A DNA stretch of 64,000 bases from Gammaproteobacteria bacterium. Lineage in GTDB: Bacteria > Pseudomonadota > Gammaproteobacteria > Pseudomonadales > Pseudomonadaceae. The notes under the pieces were generated by a model. It made no database searches. It saw only the letters and a list, made by a program, of their open reading frames with translations, and was not told the origin of the DNA. How positions within the stretch are numbered: position 1 is the first letter of the stretch; every line of letters begins with the position of its first letter. The translations under genes were made by a program, and so were the position numbers. The stretch is taken from NCBI GenBank assembly GCA_903970465.1, contig CAJCIO010000015.1, positions 1 to 64,000 on the forward strand. The letters are read 5' to 3'. This document shows positions 2,849 to 11,483 of this stretch, in pieces.

Positions 2849-3707
<859 letters not shown>

Positions 3708-3715
<8 letters not shown>

Positions 3716-4859
3716 GGGCTACCCCTTGGGCCGAGTCACTGGCAAGCGGGACGTCGCCTTCGACGAGGAAATCATCGGCATAGACCATCAGCCATTGTCC
3801 CGGAAAGCTGATCCAGGCCTGCCCTTGCGGCACCGGTTTGTCTTCTTGCAGGCGCACCTTCAGCAATTGTCCGGCGAGCTTCAAGGTAAGGATTTTGTAG
3901 GTCCCGAGGTCTTCGACATAGGTCACGTCAGCGCACCAGGCTTCGTCATAAGGACCGTCCCACACATGCACGAATTCGGGCCGGATACCCAGGGTCAGAC
4001 GAGTCCATCGAGTGGCTGCCAGGCGCTGTTGCACGCCCTCGGACAGTGGCACCACGACTTTGGCAGACCCTGCCTGACCAAACCCGACCCCACCCGGCTC
4101 GGGGGTGACGTCGATCAGGTTCATCCCCGGGCTGCCGATGAAATAGCCCACAAAGGTGTGCCGGGGCTTTTCGAATAATTCACGGGGGGTACCGAACTGC
4201 ACGATCTGGCCGCCGTACATCACCGCAATCTTGTCCGCGAAGGTCGAAGCCTCCAACTGATCATGGGTTACGTAGACCATGGTGATATTGAACTGCTCGT
4301 GGATCTGCTTGAGCTTGCGCCGCAGTTTCCACTTCAAGTGCGGGTCGATCACCGTCAGCGGCTCGTCGAAGAGAATCGCCGACACGTCGTCGCGCACCAG
4401 CCCACGGCCCATGGAGACCTTCTGCTTTTCATCAGCGGTGAGGTTCTTGGCCTTCTTTTTGAGCAGTGGCTGGAGATCAAGCACATCGGCGATTTCACTG
4501 ACCTTGGCGTGTACCCTTTTTTCATCCATGCCTTGGTTGCGCAGCGGAAACGCCAGGTTGTCGTACACCGTCATGGTGTCGTAGACCACCGGAAACTGAA
4601 ACACCTGGGCGATGTTGCGCTGTTCCGGGGACAGTGCGTTGACCACCTTGGCATCGAACATGACCTGGCCTTCCGATGGGCTCAGCAGGCCGGAGATGAT
4701 GTTCAGCAAGGTGGATTTGCCGCAGCCGGAAGGGCCGAGCAGTGCGTAGGCGCCGCCCTGCTCCCAGATGTGGCTCATTTCGCGGATCGCATAATCGTCG
4801 GGGCCGGTGGGCGCTGCGACGTAGCTGTGGGCCAGGTTCTGCAAGCGGATTTCAGCCAT
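3708..4859 (-). CDS. glpT: ABC transporter ATPase with degenerate signature motif (GlpT-like)
   Basis: Cytoplasmic ATPase of the importer, 383 residues: nucleotide-binding domain (about 1-240) followed by a MalK-type TOBE domain (about 280-365). Walker A is GPSGCGKST at 42-50, the Q-loop is at FQ 87-88, Walker B is ILFDEP at 162-167 and the switch histidine is H199 in YVTHD. In contrast, the ABC signature, normally LSGGQ, reads LTADE at 140-144, and the D-loop reads TVID instead of SNLD. Its own Walker side therefore looks intact but it offers a degenerate signature to its partner. The start ATG overlaps the stop of glpS by one base (TGATG). It probably forms a heterodimer with the GlpS-like protein. 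Confidence 0.86.
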
Positions 4860-5953
4860 CAGGCAACCCTCGCCATGCGCAGGCCGGGTGCCTGGATCAG
4901 GCTGCCGTGGGGATCGAACACAAACAATTTGTGGGTGGGGATGTACACGCGAATCGGCGCGTCCACTTCGTATCCATGCACGCCTGGCAGATGCAGCACC
5001 AACGAGAAATGCTCGTTGCGCACATGCAGGAAAGTCTCGGAGCCACTGATCTCCGCCAGTTCGACGGTGACCGCCAACTCCAGGTCGTCATCGTTGGAGG
5101 GCACGAGGCTCAGGTGGCTGGGCCGCACACCAAACTGGTAATTACCGTTACCGATTTTGCGCAGGTCAACGTTGAGCGGGAAGTGGGCGAAGTTGGCAAA
5201 GCTGACCTCGTTACCCTCGATGCTGCCGGGCATGAGATTGATAGGTGGCTCGGAAAACAGCTCGGCGGCCAGCACCGTTTTCGGCTGATGGTAGACCTTG
5301 GGGGTCAGGCCGCTCTGGATCACCCGCCCTTCGTGCAGAATGGTCGTGGTGCCTCCCAACGCCAAGGCCTCGTTGGGCTCGGTGGTGGCGTAGATGGCGA
5401 TGGTGTGGCGAGCTTCAAAGAGCAGGCGCATTTCCTGACGCAGCTCTTCGCGCAGTTTGTAGTCCAGGTTGACCAACGGCTCGTCGAAGAGAATCAGCTC
5501 CGCGTCCTTGACGAGTGCACGGGCCATGGCCGTGCGTTGTTGTTGGCCTCCGGACAATTCAAGAGGATAGCGACTGAGGAATTTTTCGATCCGCAGCATC
5601 GTGGCGGTTTCCAGCACCTTGCGCCTGATTTCGTCTTTCGAGACACCGGCCTGGCGCAGCGGCGAGGCGATATTGTCGTAAACGGTCATGCTGGGATAGT
5701 TGATGAACTGCTGGTAAACCATCGAGACGTTGCGATGGCGCACGGCAATCTGGCTGACATCGTTGCCATTCATCAGGATGCGCCCGCTGTCGGGCTTGTC
5801 CAGTCCGGCCATCAAGCGCATCAAGCTGGTTTTGCCCGACAAGGTACGCCCCAGCAAAACGTTGAATGAGCCCGGTTCGAAGCTCAACGATACATCGTCG
5901 ATCCAGACCTGGCCGTCGATCGAGCGGCTGACGTGCTCCAGCGTGAGAGACAT
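4859..5953 (-). CDS. glpS: ABC transporter ATPase lacking the switch histidine (GlpS-like)
   Basis: First gene of the operon, 364 residues, with an ATPase domain (about 1-235) and a C-terminal TOBE domain. Walker A is GRTLSGKT at 35-42, a GX4GKT match. The Q-loop is YQQ at 80-82, the signature LSGGQ is canonical at 133-137, Walker B is LILFDEP at 153-159 and the D-loop is VNLD. The H-loop, normally VTHD, reads ATTE at 189-192, so the switch histidine is replaced by threonine 191. It is the mirror image of its partner, which keeps the histidine but lacks LSGGQ. The ATG at 5953 has AAGGG six to seven bases upstream. Transcription probably starts from the sigma-54 promoter at 6031-6046. Confidence 0.86.
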   Translation of the reverse strand: MSLTLEHVSRSIDGQVWIDDVSLSFEPGSFNVLLGRTLSGKTSLMRLMAGLDKPDSGRILMNGNDVSQIAVRHRNVSMVYQQFINYPSMTVYDNIASPLRQAGVSKDEIRRKVLETATMLRIEKFLSRYPLELSGGQQQRTAMARALVKDAELILFDEPLVNLDYKLREELRQEMRLLFEARHTIAIYATTEPNEALALGGTTTILHEGRVIQSGLTPKVYHQPKTVLAAELFSEPPINLMPGSIEGNEVSFANFAHFPLNVDLRKIGNGNYQFGVRPSHLSLVPSNDDDLELAVTVELAEISGSETFLHVRNEHFSLVLHLPGVHGYEVDAPIRVYIPTHKLFVFDPHGSLIQAPGLRMARVA

Positions 5954-6030
5954 GGCGTGCCCTTTGGTCAGTGGCGTTTTTTATTAGAAGGCGGGTGCTG
6001 GTCGACACGTTCGTCGACTGCTGGTGATAT

Positions 6031-6046
6031 AGCGACAATCGTGCCA
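6031..6046 (-). promoter_or_regulatory. Sigma-54 (RpoN) promoter of the glpSTPQUV-like operon
   Basis: On the minus strand the sequence is TGGCACGATTGTCGCT. It matches the -24/-12 consensus TGGCACG-N4-TTGC with GG and GC exactly ten bases apart; the only deviation is TCGC for TTGC. The predicted start of transcription lies about 12 bases further, near 6020, giving a leader of about 65 bases before the glpS start. A sigma-54-dependent activator is encoded divergently, which strongly supports the assignment. Confidence 0.75.
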
Positions 6047-6143
6047 AGGCCCCTCCCGGCCGCCCTCATCCGCCTGGAATGCGCGCAGCAGGGGGTTGGC
6101 GGCAAACCATTGCCCGCAGGGATCGTTCGTTGGCGAAAACAAA

Positions 6144-6203
6144 TGAACAGAAAAAGCTGAACACCTGAACACAGTGAACATTGACTTTGAGCAATACTGA
6201 ACA
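6144..6203. promoter_or_regulatory. Cluster of five TGAACA hexamers, likely activator-binding sites
   Basis: The hexamer TGAACA occurs at 6144, 6158, 6166, 6175 and 6198, all in the same orientation within 60 bases. The cluster lies about 100-170 bases upstream of the sigma-54 promoter, the usual place for enhancer sites. Binding by the adjacent AcoR-like protein is inferred. Irregular spacing (14, 8, 9 and 23 bases) and same-strand orientation are unusual for a dimer operator. The cluster also overlaps a possible TTG start at 6181, arguing that the regulator begins further downstream. Confidence 0.5.
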
Positions 6204-6291
6204 ACACTGCACAGAAGTTTTCAGGTCGCACACGCTCGACCCACGCCCTACCCCCATAACAATAAAAGACGCTGCACGGAGCGATCTCGAT

Positions 6292-8133
6292 ATGGCCACA
6301 CCCGGCATTGCCATTGCGCACGACACCATGATCAAGGATTCCTGGGCCCGCTGCAGGGAGTTCGGCCTGGACCACCGTTCGCTTCCGGCCTTCGGCCAAT
6401 TACCGGCGCAGCAGGTTTCCCAGTTGCTCGAACGTCACCGAGTGCTGTCGCTGACGGCACACCAGCAGGTGTTGCCGTTCTACGAAAACATCCTGAGCAA
6501 TGCCAACTGCCTGATCCTGCTCGCGGATCATCAGGGGCAGGTGCTCAACTCGTGGGGCACTCAGCGCTTCCTCGAACCGGCCCAGGGGCTGGGCTTCGTA
6601 GCAGGCGCATGCTGGGTCGAACAGGCGGCCGGCACCAATGCCATCGGTACGGCGCTGGCCGGTGAGCAAGCGGTGCACATCGAGCACGACGAGCACTTCC
6701 TCAAGGCCAATCGCTTCATGACCGGCTCAGCAGCGCCAATCTTCGACGCCTCACGGCGTTTGATGGGAGTGCTGGACCTGTCCAGCGACAGTTTCCTCCC
6801 GCCCTCCTACACCCTGGGGATGGTGAAGATGATCAGTCAGACCATCGAAAACAGGCTGATTCTTGACCAGTTTCAGAACACCCATTTCCAGCTCATCTTC
6901 AACACGGGCCTGGACAACCTCGACAGCCAGTGGGCCGGCCTGCTGATTTTCGATGAGAGCGGGTACATCCTCTGTGCCAACCGTCGCGCTGACAGCCTGC
7001 TAGGGACGAGCAAGCTGCAGGCAAACATCGACGAGCTGTTCAGGACATCGGTGGCCGAGGTGCTCGATCAGTCAGGCGGGCAACCCTTCGCTCTGCAGGC
7101 CTCACGTGACAACCGCTTTTATGGTCAGCTCAAACATCCCAAAGCCCCCGTTCTGCCCCTGGCAAGCGTGCCTCAGGTGGCGCAGCCGGTGGCCTGCGCG
7201 TTGCCGATGACCGTGGGTTTTGGCGATCCGAAGATCGACAAAGCCCTCGCACAGGCACAACGGTTGCTTGAAAAGAACGTACCGCTGTTGATTCACGGTG
7301 AAACCGGTGCCGGCAAGGAAGTGTTCGTCAAGGCGCTGCATCAGGCCAGCTCGCGGGCCAGGCAGCCGTTGATCGCTGTGAACTGCGCGGCGATCCCTTC
7401 AGAGTTGGTGGAAGCGGAGCTATTTGGCTATGAAAAGGGCGCGTTCACTGGCGCGCACCATAAAGGCAGCATCGGCCTGATTCGCAAGGCACACAAGGCC
7501 ACACTGTTCCTGGACGAAATCGGCGACATGCCGCTTGCGGTTCAGGCCCGCTTGCTACGGGTCTTGCAGGAACGCTGCGTACAGCCTTTGGGCAGCAGCG
7601 AGCAACACCCGGTGGACATCCGGCTGATCTCTGCGACCCATTGTTCGCTGCGCGATCAGGTACATCGCGGGCTGTTCCGACAGGATCTGTATTACCGCAT
7701 CAGCGGTTTGAATCTGCAACTGCCCCCGCTACGCGAGCGTACTGACCTACCCGCACTGGTGCGCAGCATCTGGAACCAACACCGTGAACCCGAGCAAACG
7801 GCGGGGTTCGATCCGCAGGTGATGGCCCTGTTCGAGCGCCATCCCTGGCCCGGCAACCTTCGCCAGCTCAGCAATGTAATTCAGGTGGCCCTGGCCTTGG
7901 CCGACGGTGAGTTGATCAGGCCCGCGCATCTACCAGAGGATTTCTTCGCAGACCTGGAGTGCTCCAGGCGCAGCAGTGTGACTGTCAAAGCCTCTGACAG
8001 CCACGCGGTGTCGGGCTCGAGTGGGGATTTGAATGAACTGTTGCAAGCCTGTGGGGGAAATATCTCGCAGCTTGCCAAGCACTTGGGCGTGAGCCGCAAT
8101 ACGGTCTACAAGCGGTTGCGCGCAGGTGTGTGA
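6292..8133 (+). CDS. AcoR-like sigma-54-dependent transcriptional activator
   Basis: Enhancer-binding protein, 613 residues from the ATG at 6292. The N-terminal half has a GAF sensor (about 50-200) and a PAS-like region. The central AAA+ domain contains Walker A GETGAGKE, the sigma-54 contact loop GAFTGA and Walker B LFLDEIGDM. The C-terminus is a Fis-type helix-turn-helix (NISQLAKHLGVSRNTVYKRL). The architecture matches AcoR-type regulators that sense a small effector through GAF. The frame is open from a TTG at 6181, but that start lies in the TGAACA repeat cluster; GGAG ten bases before 6292 supports the ATG. Divergence from the ABC operon and the sigma-54 promoter there make that operon the likely target. 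The effector is unknown. Confidence 0.85.
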   Translation: MATPGIAIAHDTMIKDSWARCREFGLDHRSLPAFGQLPAQQVSQLLERHRVLSLTAHQQVLPFYENILSNANCLILLADHQGQVLNSWGTQRFLEPAQGLGFVAGACWVEQAAGTNAIGTALAGEQAVHIEHDEHFLKANRFMTGSAAPIFDASRRLMGVLDLSSDSFLPPSYTLGMVKMISQTIENRLILDQFQNTHFQLIFNTGLDNLDSQWAGLLIFDESGYILCANRRADSLLGTSKLQANIDELFRTSVAEVLDQSGGQPFALQASRDNRFYGQLKHPKAPVLPLASVPQVAQPVACALPMTVGFGDPKIDKALAQAQRLLEKNVPLLIHGETGAGKEVFVKALHQASSRARQPLIAVNCAAIPSELVEAELFGYEKGAFTGAHHKGSIGLIRKAHKATLFLDEIGDMPLAVQARLLRVLQERCVQPLGSSEQHPVDIRLISATHCSLRDQVHRGLFRQDLYYRISGLNLQLPPLRERTDLPALVRSIWNQHREPEQTAGFDPQVMALFERHPWPGNLRQLSNVIQVALALADGELIRPAHLPEDFFADLECSRRSSVTVKASDSHAVSGSSGDLNELLQACGGNISQLAKHLGVSRNTVYKRLRAGV

Positions 8134-8422: not shown

Positions 8423-9235
8423 ATGCACACTCAGGATCTCGCCGACGCCGCCCAGTCGACGCCGGCCACGGCATTGCCCAAGGACGCCCCTGCGGTGACT
8501 GTCTTGCGGGTGTTGACGGTCAATACTCACAAAGGCTTCAGCCCCTTGAACCGGCGCTTTGTGCTGCCCGAGCTGCGCGAGGCCGTGCGGGCATTGTCCG
8601 CCGATGTGGTGTTCCTGCAGGAAGTACTCGGCACCCACCGCCAGCACGGCCAGCGCTACGACAACTGGTCCGACGTCCCACAGTACGAGTTTCTCGCCGA
8701 CAGCATGTGGCCGGTGTTCGCCTATGGACGCAACGCGGTGTATCCGGACGGCGAGCATGGCAATGCCCTGCTGTCGAAATTTCCCATCCTGCGTCACGAG
8801 AATCTCGACGTGTCGGTCAGCGATGGCACTGAGGACCGCGGCCTGCTGCATTCGGTGCTGGCGGTGCCCGGCCAGGGCGAAGTGCATACCATCTGCGTGC
8901 ACCTCGGGCTGCGAGAGGGACAACGCCAGCAGCAGTTGCGTTTGCTCTGCGATTTGCTGGCGCGCATTCCGGAGGGCGCGCCGGTGATCGTCGCTGGAGA
9001 CTTTAACGACTGGCGCCTGCGCGCCGACGGGATGCTGGCCGAGGCTGGCATGCATGAAGTCTTCGTCGATACCTTCGGCGCCCCTGCCCGCAGCTTCCCG
9101 GCGCGCTGGCCGCTGTTGTGCCTTGACCGCATCTATCTCCGCAACGCCAAGGCCGTTCTGCCTCAGGTGCTGTCTCGCAAGCCTTGGTCGCATCTGTCCG
9201 ACCATGTGCCGCTGGCCGTCGAGGTGCACCTATGA
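8423..9235 (+). CDS. ybhP: Endonuclease/exonuclease/phosphatase family protein, YbhP-like
   Basis: A 270-residue protein of the Mg-dependent DNase I-like fold. Visible motifs are TVNTHKG near the start of the domain (metal-site Asn), FLQEV (metal-binding Glu), GRNAVYPDGEHGNALLSK, GDFNDWR (Asp/Asn catalytic pair) and SDHVPL (catalytic Asp-His) at the end. Family members act on nucleic acids or phospholipid/inositol phosphates. Its role next to cardiolipin synthase, as in the E. coli ybhN-clsB-ybhP cluster, is not established. AGGAG lies about eight bases before the ATG. The stop overlaps the clsB start (ATGA), so translation is coupled. Confidence 0.85.
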   Translation: MHTQDLADAAQSTPATALPKDAPAVTVLRVLTVNTHKGFSPLNRRFVLPELREAVRALSADVVFLQEVLGTHRQHGQRYDNWSDVPQYEFLADSMWPVFAYGRNAVYPDGEHGNALLSKFPILRHENLDVSVSDGTEDRGLLHSVLAVPGQGEVHTICVHLGLREGQRQQQLRLLCDLLARIPEGAPVIVAGDFNDWRLRADGMLAEAGMHEVFVDTFGAPARSFPARWPLLCLDRIYLRNAKAVLPQVLSRKPWSHLSDHVPLAVEVHL

Positions 9236-10515
9236 GCCCGAATGGCAAGGACGCGCTAATGCAGGACTTTATCGCCAGCCCGGACGAGCATTGGCGTGCC
9301 GATAACGAAGCGCAACTGCTGATCAACGGCGAGGAATTCTTCCCCAGCGTGTTCGCCGCCATCCGCGGCGCCCGTGAAGAAGTCTTGATCGAGACCTTTA
9401 TCTTTCGTGACGACAAGGTCGGCCGTGAACTGCAAGAGGTGTTGATCGATGCGGCGCAACGCGGCGTGCGCGTGGAAATGCTGGTCGACGGCTATGGCAG
9501 CGACGAGTTGCAAGCGCCGTTTATCCGCGCCATGACGGATGCCGGCGTCCATCTGCTGGCCTTCGATCCGCAACCTCGTCGTTTCGGCGTGCGCACCAAC
9601 CTGTTCCGCCGCCTGCACCGCAAACACGTGATAGTGGACGGTGAAATTGGCTTCATTGGCGGCATCAATTACTGCGCCGACCACTTGGCAGATTACGGCC
9701 CGATGGCCAAACAGGATTACGCCATGCGGGTCCGCGGGCCGATCGTCACCAACCTGCACGCCGCCACGTTGAAGTTGATGGACGAGACCAGCCGGTTGGC
9801 TCGTACCGCCAAGCCCTGGCTGTCGCGCGGCCCGGCGCCAGACGCCGATACTGCCAAAGCGCGGATGTTGCTTAGCGTGCGCGACAACACCCAGCACACC
9901 AACGATATCGAACAGCATTATCTGCATGCGGTGACGCACGCGCGTCAACGCATCATTATCGCCAACGCCTATTTCTTCCCGGGCTATCGACTCTTGCGCG
10001 AATTGCGCAATGCCGCGCGGCGTGGCGTCGCTGTGACGCTGATCCTGCAAGGCATGCCGGATATACCGCTGATGCGCTTGTGCTCGCGGCTGCTTTACAA
10101 CTACCTGCTGCGCGACGGCGTGGTCATTCGTGAATACATCGAGCGTCCCCTGCACGGCAAGGTCGCGTTGGTGGACGAGCGCTGGTCGACAGTAGGGTCG
10201 AGCAATCTCGATCCCCTGAGCCTTTCGCTGAACCTGGAAGGTAATCTGATCATCGATGATCGCGCCTTCAACGCCCGGCTGCATGAGCACTTGCACGAAC
10301 TCTCAGAGACGAAATGCAAGTCTATCCCTCTGGAACGCGTACTGCGCGGTTATTGGTGGCGCGCGCCGATCATCTTTGTGTGCTTCCACTTCTTGCGTCA
10401 TTTTCCGGCGATTGTCGGCCTGCTGCCCGCCCATTCCCCGAAACTCAAGCCGATGTTGCCAACGCCCGGCGAGACACCCGTCACGCCTGCGTTTGACCAG
10501 GAGAAAGCCTCATGA
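9232..10515 (+). CDS. clsB: Cardiolipin synthase ClsB
   Basis: Phospholipase D-superfamily cardiolipin synthase of 427 residues acting at the inner membrane to condense phosphatidyl groups. Two HKD motifs are present: HRKHVIVDGEIGFIGG and HGKVALVDERWSTVGSSNLD. There is no N-terminal transmembrane pair, matching ClsB rather than ClsA. The gene is the middle member of a three-gene operon with ATGA overlaps at both ends (ybhP and ybhN), the same trio as in E. coli. Confidence 0.9.
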   Translation: MSPNGKDALMQDFIASPDEHWRADNEAQLLINGEEFFPSVFAAIRGAREEVLIETFIFRDDKVGRELQEVLIDAAQRGVRVEMLVDGYGSDELQAPFIRAMTDAGVHLLAFDPQPRRFGVRTNLFRRLHRKHVIVDGEIGFIGGINYCADHLADYGPMAKQDYAMRVRGPIVTNLHAATLKLMDETSRLARTAKPWLSRGPAPDADTAKARMLLSVRDNTQHTNDIEQHYLHAVTHARQRIIIANAYFFPGYRLLRELRNAARRGVAVTLILQGMPDIPLMRLCSRLLYNYLLRDGVVIREYIERPLHGKVALVDERWSTVGSSNLDPLSLSLNLEGNLIIDDRAFNARLHEHLHELSETKCKSIPLERVLRGYWWRAPIIFVCFHFLRHFPAIVGLLPAHSPKLKPMLPTPGETPVTPAFDQEKAS

Positions 10516-11483
10516 AAGCGAGCGCCGCTGAACACGACGCTGCGCCCACCACGAGCCGCCAGCGCAATCTGTGGCGCTGGCTGAAACGCGGTATGGCCGT
10601 ATTCTGTTTCGTCATGGTGCCGGTGCTGTTGTTCATGTTGGTGCGCAACATGGATTGGCAGGAGGTCAGCCACGCCTTGCGCTCTTACAAGCTGAGCACC
10701 TTGCTGCTGGGTGCGGGCATCACGTTGGCAAGCTATCTGGTCTTCGCCAGTTATGATCTGTTATCCAAACGCTACACCGGCCACGAGGTGCCCGCTACCA
10801 AGGTGCTGCCGCTGGCGTTCGTCTGCTATGCATTCAACCTCAACCTGAGCAGTTGGGTAGGCGGCATCGCCCTGCGCTATCGGCTGTACGGCAAGCTGGG
10901 CCTCAAGGCGGCGACCATCACTCAGATTCTCAGCCTTGGACTGATCACCAACTGGCTAGGGTATCTGCTGATTGGCGGAGCAGTCTTCGCATCGGGCTTC
11001 CCCGACCTGCCCGAGGGCATGAAGATAGGCTCCACTGGCCTCCGCCTGATCGGCGTGGCCATGGTGCTGGCTGGGGTGGGGTATCTGCTGGCGTGCGCCT
11101 TTGCGCGCAAACGGACCTGGCAAGTACGTGGCAATGAAATTACCTTGCCGTCGCTGCGCTTTGCCCTCCTGCAAGCCTCGACCGGAGCGCTGAACTGGGC
11201 GTTGATGGGCTCGCTGATCTATCTCCTGCTGCCGGCCAAGGCGAGCTACTTCGAGGTGCTGGCGATTCTATTGATCAGCAGCATTGCCGGGGTTATCACC
11301 CATATCCCCGCAGGGCTGGGGGTGCTGGAAACGATCTTCATCACCCTGCTGCAGGGCGAGTATTCCAAGGGGGCGCTGCTGGCCGCGCTGATCGGTTATC
11401 GGGCGCTGTATTTCCTGCTGCCGTTGGCGATTTCCTGCGTGATCTACCTGGTGCTGGAGCAGCGTACGCGCAAATCTGGGTGA
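10512..11483 (+). CDS. ybhN: Lysylphosphatidylglycerol synthase-like transmembrane protein, YbhN family
   Basis: A 323-residue integral membrane protein of the UPF0104/LPG synthase transmembrane family with about eight hydrophobic helices. Family hallmarks are FNLNLSSWVGGIALRYRLY and the late ITHIPAGLGVLETIF stretch. It lacks the cytoplasmic aminoacyl-transferase domain of MprF, so lipid aminoacylation is not expected; a lipid transport role is possible. Its start overlaps the clsB stop by four bases. Confidence 0.84.
   Translation: MKASAAEHDAAPTTSRQRNLWRWLKRGMAVFCFVMVPVLLFMLVRNMDWQEVSHALRSYKLSTLLLGAGITLASYLVFASYDLLSKRYTGHEVPATKVLPLAFVCYAFNLNLSSWVGGIALRYRLYGKLGLKAATITQILSLGLITNWLGYLLIGGAVFASGFPDLPEGMKIGSTGLRLIGVAMVLAGVGYLLACAFARKRTWQVRGNEITLPSLRFALLQASTGALNWALMGSLIYLLLPAKASYFEVLAILLISSIAGVITHIPAGLGVLETIFITLLQGEYSKGALLAALIGYRALYFLLPLAISCVIYLVLEQRTRKSG

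Follow-up and report, generated by a model that had tools for sequence, protein, structure and literature searches.

A conserved row of same-direction TGAACA hexamers as a probable enhancer for the sigma-54 activator of a GlpSTPQUV-like importer in Pseudomonas

Promoters of the sigma-54 class have the consensus TGGCAC-N5-TTGCW, and transcription from them starts approximately 12 bases after the GC and is lost without RpoN. Same-direction sites bound by a sigma-54 activator are known from PilR, which has four tandem (C/G)TGTC copies, all in one direction, at pilA. The locus described here is similar in having same-direction copies, but it differs in motif and gene, and its TGAACA array also covers the promoter of the activator itself. 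A description of the PilR site layout was not found in the available part of PMC10418997. The nearest precedent that we found in the literature, as far as the accessible text of the report goes, was CbrB of P. putida, whose targets crcZ, crcY and PP2810 contain three TGTTAC subsites, of which one is forward and two are reverse, located on one face and 20-25 bp apart (PMC6296734). Both cases involve a sigma-54 activator, several six-base subsites per promoter and a GG-N10-GC promoter; the CbrB subsites lie on one DNA face with IHF in between, as may hold here, and two of the three share a direction (PMC6296734). In contrast to these three subsites, the arrays considered here have five to seven hexamers that mostly run in one direction and are largely spaced by 8-14 bp; moreover, CbrB acts at many promoters, and an overlap with its own promoter is not described in the available part of PMC6296734. 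A further example involves Clostridiales, in which the accessible text of one study assigned TGT/ACA inverted repeats, likened to those of FhlA and NifA, to fifteen activator groups and distinct motifs to fifteen others (PMC6615313). These TGT/ACA sites are also upstream sites of AAA+ activators serving -24/-12 promoters, but they are inverted repeats, whereas the hexamers considered here run in the same direction and have a recurrent inverted partner only at the array end. For the Desulfovibrio activator DVU2956, three conserved half-sites were reported, with no orientation given, in the part of the source available (PMC4641369). Five to seven mostly one-direction hexamers over the activator's own promoter would be a variant of known enhancer layouts.

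The window, i.e., the whole stretch of DNA analyzed, comprised the first 64,000 nt of a contig in a 5.5-Mb genome. A 339-bp region (5954-6292) lay between an importer operon on the minus strand and a divergent activator gene on the plus strand. ORF and domain searches identified two importer ATP-binding proteins (4859-5953 and 3708-4859) and two permeases (2849-3715 and 2022-2891), and domain matches indicated a small DUF2160 membrane protein (1737-2009), which we take to be GlpU-like, and a solute-binding protein (SBP_bac_8, 1-1673) that continues past the window edge, all encoded on the minus strand. No relative with a solved structure was found for the solute-binding protein. The rhizobial GlpSTPQUV glycerol importer is encoded by two ATPase genes, two permease genes, a DUF2160 protein gene and a solute-binding protein gene in a row, and all six components were present in a row in this operon. 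By its layout, the importer is most likely GlpSTPQUV-like, with glycerol as a possible cargo.

The divergent gene (6292-8133), which the preliminary description had assigned to a sigma-54 activator, proved by ORF analysis and domain search to encode an N-terminal DhaR-like region, an AAA+ domain with the GAFTGA loop and a C-terminal Fis-type HTH, the features expected of a bacterial enhancer-binding protein. Its product has 613 residues, and the ATG at 6292 agreed with the starts of relatives in an alignment. Residues 13-238 resembled the DhaR structure 4lrx (E 6.3e-11); the score against the DhaR profile NF008485 was 266 bits, below the curated cut-off of 551. A structure model (mean pLDDT 68.8) and a fold search confirmed the sigma-54 activator fold and went no further than that. 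Among the matches listed, the named proteins most similar to the activator were from Pseudomonas species, with a maximum of 75% identity in P. graminis. Behind the activator gene (8423-11483), we noticed by eye ORFs resembling an exo/endonuclease-phosphatase, a phospholipase D/cardiolipin-synthase-like protein and a membrane protein.

The importer operon had been predicted to have a near-consensus -24/-12 promoter, and this prediction held. The site, TGGCACGATTGTCGCT (minus strand, 6046 down to 6031), agreed with 11 of 12 consensus positions, contained an exact GG-N10-GC and scored best among the exact GG-N10-GC sites in the 64-kb window; transcription is expected to start near 6021. TGGCA was present in 168/168 of the loci compared below and TCGC in 150/168, the site in L119 being set by hand. 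Five same-direction TGAACA hexamers had also been claimed, and we recovered five exact copies, all on the plus strand, designated slots b (6144-6149), c (6158-6163), d (6166-6171), e (6175-6180) and g (6198-6203, within the spacer of the activator promoter). Slot e was exact in 23/168 loci. Two further plus-strand slots are degenerate in this genome: slot a (6134-6139, CGAAAA, two mismatches) was exact in 98/168 loci and slot f (6188-6193, TGAGCA, one mismatch) in 156/168, and the fullest arrays thus have about seven slots. A possible but weak outer inverted half-site occurs on the minus strand at 6124-6129 (CGTTCG on the plus strand, two mismatches to TGTTCA).

In a Markov control of the region, none of 20,000 sequences contained five TGAACA, and any hexamer was found five times in 0.7% of them. 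The pattern TGAACA-N2-4-TGAACA occurred at five places in the same genome, two of them in the array. We further scanned 99 genomes of the genus for a triple pattern (TGAACA-N2-18-TGAACA-N2-18-TGAACA) and found it, among the matches listed, in 81, i.e., in all 72 with the activator and in 9 of the 27 without it. The strings listed for these nine were simple repeats or had layouts unlike the array; further triple matches, again among those listed, were located elsewhere in several activator-bearing genomes, including the one studied here. A literature search found no paper on TGAACA direct repeats in Pseudomonas.

We then examined 199 genomes of the genus, of which 141 contained the activator (E 1e-150) and 143 the first importer ATPase (E 1e-100). 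As stated beforehand, relatives that had lost the repeats and yet retained the operon would speak against the array. Such a loss was not seen: the array was kept in all 140 genomes read of the 143 with the ATPase, those set apart being G035 and G167, whose contigs end at the locus, and G069, which was treated separately. The contig of G069 contains 217 bp of leader, in which TGAACA was absent, and this genome had no activator match either. In G161 (L140), which had the ATPase and no activator at the cut-off, the activator gene was apparently frameshifted and the array was kept. Activator genes that look broken or shortened were also noticed in L143 and L144 (G034 and G052), with the array still there. 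All of the first 129 loci (the locus studied here and 128 relatives) had a divergent ATPase gene and at least four TGAACA (129/129). The full set contained 168 Pseudomonadaceae loci, one per genome, 150 from the genus and 18 from six other genera of the family; L139 (G146), without an activator match, was replaced by L151. Each of these loci contained 2-8 TGAACA, with fewer than four in seven of the 168. Beyond the family, a homologue of the activator (E 1e-110, 36-43% identity) was found in 8 of 320 genomes from other families of the class, with no importer ATPase in the flanks available and no array.

The hexamers occupied recurrent positions, at about -32, -22, -8, 0, 9, 22 and 32 relative to slot d (6166 in the window), the slot at 9 being used in a minority of loci. 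Column information was calculated for those of the 129 loci in which slots d and f were both exact (118 loci); because the alignment was anchored on both, these two slots are complete by construction. Hexamer columns carried 0.8 to 2 bits, and most spacer columns less than 0.6, with the exception of TTGACA and ACACT. A row of mostly same-direction hexamers in strict spacing is kept by many Pseudomonas species. The dyad layout that is usual for upstream activating sequences of enhancer-binding proteins was not found in the array. The earlier statement that the hexamers are not inverted repeats is correct for this genome, in which the 339-bp region (5954-6292) contained no copy of TGTTCA, but it does not extend fully to the relatives, where 50 TGTTCA were counted vs 878 TGAACA in the 168 loci (75 bases before to 50 bases after the -35 element). 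At least 26 of these 50 were situated at the two array ends, and the fullest form, in genus g2, read inverted, direct, direct, direct, direct, inverted. When hidden inverted partners were searched for at each slot, the sole recurrent one was located 10 bp before the slot (19% of the places counted); a signal at 20 bp (9.7%) is probably the same site viewed from the next slot. Phasing of the hexamers on one face within the array was suggestive and not significant (resultant 0.78 at 10.5 bp, P = 0.14 vs random gaps of 8-14 bp).

The array also overlapped a sigma-70 promoter that points toward the activator gene (plus strand, 6181-6208), with the -35 element TTGACT at 6181-6186, a 16-bp spacer and the -10 element AACACT at 6203-6208. 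Slots f and g fill its spacer. The 118 loci had been anchored solely on hexamers d and f; in them, TTGAC did not vary at 15 bases beyond slot d, and ACACT was strongly conserved at +38. In the 168 loci, for which the scoring of the anchor already included TTGACA and the -10 element, TTGACA or TTGACT was found in 167, and AACACT followed a 16-bp spacer in 112, with mostly close variants in the others. The description of the array as an enhancer was supported and yet incomplete, in that its overlap with the near-invariant promoter of the activator had been missed. From this overlap, autorepression is predicted, i.e., occupancy of the array should hold back the activator gene.

An upstream activating sequence is expected to keep its distance to the promoter in helical phase, and this was observed. 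Measured between the -24 and -35 elements, the latter of which shifts together with the array, the distance was near 80, 90-91, 101-102, 112, 120-125 or 132-137 bases. With a tree built from the initial 600 bases of the ATPase gene, we inferred 57 changes in this distance; approximately 34 of at least 5 bases were used, changes of 1-4 bases (approximately 23 of the 57) being set aside and L119 and L131 having been re-anchored by hand beforehand, and these had a mean cosine of 0.75 at 10.5 bp, a value higher than any seen in 20,000 draws with uniform phase. Two control distances gave a mean cosine of -0.07 (array to activator start, approximately 90 changes, P 0.83) and 0.12 (promoter to importer start, approximately 22 changes, P 0.21). 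With a second tree, the corresponding values were 0.68 for the promoter-to-array distance and 0.00 and 0.14 for the controls. Since the distance changes by whole helical turns, the array appears to act on the -24/-12 promoter, and we consider the phasing the strongest evidence for such an action through a contact that would need one DNA face. In addition, matches to the IHF consensus with at most one mismatch were present between promoter and array in 90/168 loci vs 8.6 expected; 86 of the 90 shared a strand, and almost all of these 86 were 6-7, 17-18 or 28-29 bases in, again in whole-turn steps. In the window itself, no recognizable IHF site was found between 6046 and 6134, where the best candidate had 3 mismatches.

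To compare hexamers with the DNA-binding domain, we used 150 loci, in which some genomes are present twice. All 72 loci with the importer ATPase in view had at least three hexamers and a Y-K pair in the recognition helix. Of the 78 with no importer in view, 76 had two hexamers or fewer; 67 had Y-R, ten fell outside the search pattern and one had Y-K. The latter, L209, comes from a close relative in which the neighbour is truncated by the end of the contig, and the two loci with three hexamers were L217 and L243. The importer-less relatives (34-41% identity, e.g., L159 and L161) shared the AAA+ domain and Fis-type HTH where checked but differed in having few TGAACA and Y-R instead of Y-K. By eye, TGTCAC/GTGACA palindromes were noticed upstream in a few importer-less relatives (which include most of L157-L164, L197-L200 and L217-L282), and some neighbours of such relatives resembled aldehyde dehydrogenase genes. 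A shortened DNA-binding domain was considered as the cause of the direct repeats and dropped, as importer-less L221 matched the HTH profile over the same range.

Among the 80 named homologues retained from 593 matching stretches, three outside the family adjoined an importer ATPase gene: Psychromonas (51% identity), Natronospirillum (49%) and Alginatibacterium (47%). The Psychromonas leader contained three TGAACA 21 bp apart, and that of Alginatibacterium one TGTTCA and two TGAACA at intervals of 22 and 23 bp, with one more TGTTCA farther away; a sigma-54-like site matching 10/12 positions was present on the operon strand in both. In Natronospirillum (L214), the array was reversed, with six same-direction TGTTCA at spacings of 11, 23, 11, 12 and 12 bp plus one TGAACA; no good -24/-12 site was found there on the operon strand, and a sigma-70 site was located beside the array and not under it. 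Because the hexamers follow the activator, its pairing with the importer and the Y-K helix, the activator is likeliest to bind the TGAACA array. Together, this correlation and the phasing to the -24/-12 promoter support the proposal that the array is an enhancer for this activator.

Both leaders contained a further conserved motif, AANAANAA, which is the motif of Hfq-Crc catabolite repression. It was present as AACAATAA in the activator leader (6258-6265, plus strand; 154/168 loci vs 19.5 expected) and as AATAAAAA in the importer leader (5978-5985, minus strand; 140/168 vs 19.5 expected), and on the opposite strand it did not occur in the activator leader, for which alone this count was made (0/168). 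Its occurrence in both leaders suggests that translation of both activator and importer may be restrained when a preferred carbon source is present.

Published expression data bear on a likely counterpart of the importer in P. putida KT2440, PP_2260-PP_2263, as judged from gene order and annotation only. According to the available part of the report, these genes were up 17, 40, 11 and 10 fold in the wild type under nitrogen limitation, while an rpoN mutant still had them up 7, 8, 6 and 8 fold, and PP_2259 showed no significant change (PMC7801951). This persistence counts against strict RpoN dependence, and RpoN may therefore not be the sole route. In the same text, urtA, which is listed under NtrB/NtrC, was likewise still induced in the rpoN mutant (12.7 and 11.1 fold; PMC7801951), and these data are ambiguous.

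We propose, with good confidence, that the hexamers form a same-direction enhancer for the DhaR/AcoR-like sigma-54 activator of the GlpSTPQUV-like importer and that the region is a two-way switch. The divergent activator would bind the TGAACA array, as suggested by conservation, slot pattern and the helix correlation, and the array-bound activator would contact sigma-54 polymerase at the -24/-12 promoter by looping, which would need the array on one helix face and to which the evolutionary phasing points. ATP-driven opening would then switch on the importer operon. In the opposite direction, the array extends over the spacer of the sigma-70 promoter of the activator and over its flank, and occupancy would dampen the activator gene. 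Given the DhaR-like sensor region and the importer layout, the signal is probably a polyol or a compound resembling glycerol, or else a product of one of these.

Could the array belong to another protein? A regulator such as a DeoR/GlpR-type repressor might occupy it, with the activator acting elsewhere or without sequence specificity. Direct repeats suit some DeoR-type repressors, and the leader of G069, which has the ATPase without an activator match, contained CGAACATAAACGAACA, a direct repeat that keeps the 10-bp layout and differs by one base in each hexamer. The start of a DeoR-like gene was also seen by eye on that contig (L141/L201, G069:C44, about 1-217). This leader and gene start, together with the missing activator match, suggest that the importer in G069 has been rewired to another regulator. 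For the TGAACA array itself, we consider a foreign regulator unlikely: the hexamers track the presence of the activator and its recognition helix, and phasing to the sigma-54 promoter fits an enhancer more than a repressor. In addition, CGAACA-N4-CGAACA had 2 exact places in the genome studied here and, with at most one mismatch, 34 vs 21 for the reversed control, so that no rich regulon of such a layout is visible.

The position of slots f and g inside the near-invariant sigma-70 spacer is also what would be seen if the array only repressed the activator's own promoter, the importer promoter being served from solution or from other sites. It is improbable, however, that repression accounts for the whole array, which is kept in phase with the -24/-12 promoter and not with the activator start and whose slots a to d extend past the sigma-70 promoter. 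As for a functionless product of chance or mutation, TGAACA repeats of the simple-repeat type do occur elsewhere in some genomes, but the recurrence of the slots despite spacer turnover, the conservation of the pattern across several genera and the Markov control speak strongly against it, and we give this reading almost no weight.

Within the preferred reading, that of an enhancer bound by the divergent activator, we tentatively suggest a non-dyad mode of action, which on balance we doubt more than we favour. One DNA-binding domain would occupy each TGAACA, and the five to seven half-sites would line up AAA+ subunits and template the ring, instead of holding resting dimers on palindromes. Such an enhancer might have arisen with the change from Y-R to Y-K, as activator and importer became paired, and the reversed array in Natronospirillum suggests that it may work in either direction.

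If the proposed enhancer role is right, the array would be a sigma-54 enhancer that departs from the usual inverted repeats and is yet kept in many species, among which the number, spacing and direction of its sites vary naturally. The distance between promoter and array, which changes by whole turns, would provide a natural record of how the DNA loops. According to the available part of a review from 2020, it remained unknown how binding to upstream sites influences the activity of AAA+ activators (PMC7175178). As one clear unit repeated, the array would provide a handle on how upstream-site binding affects these proteins.
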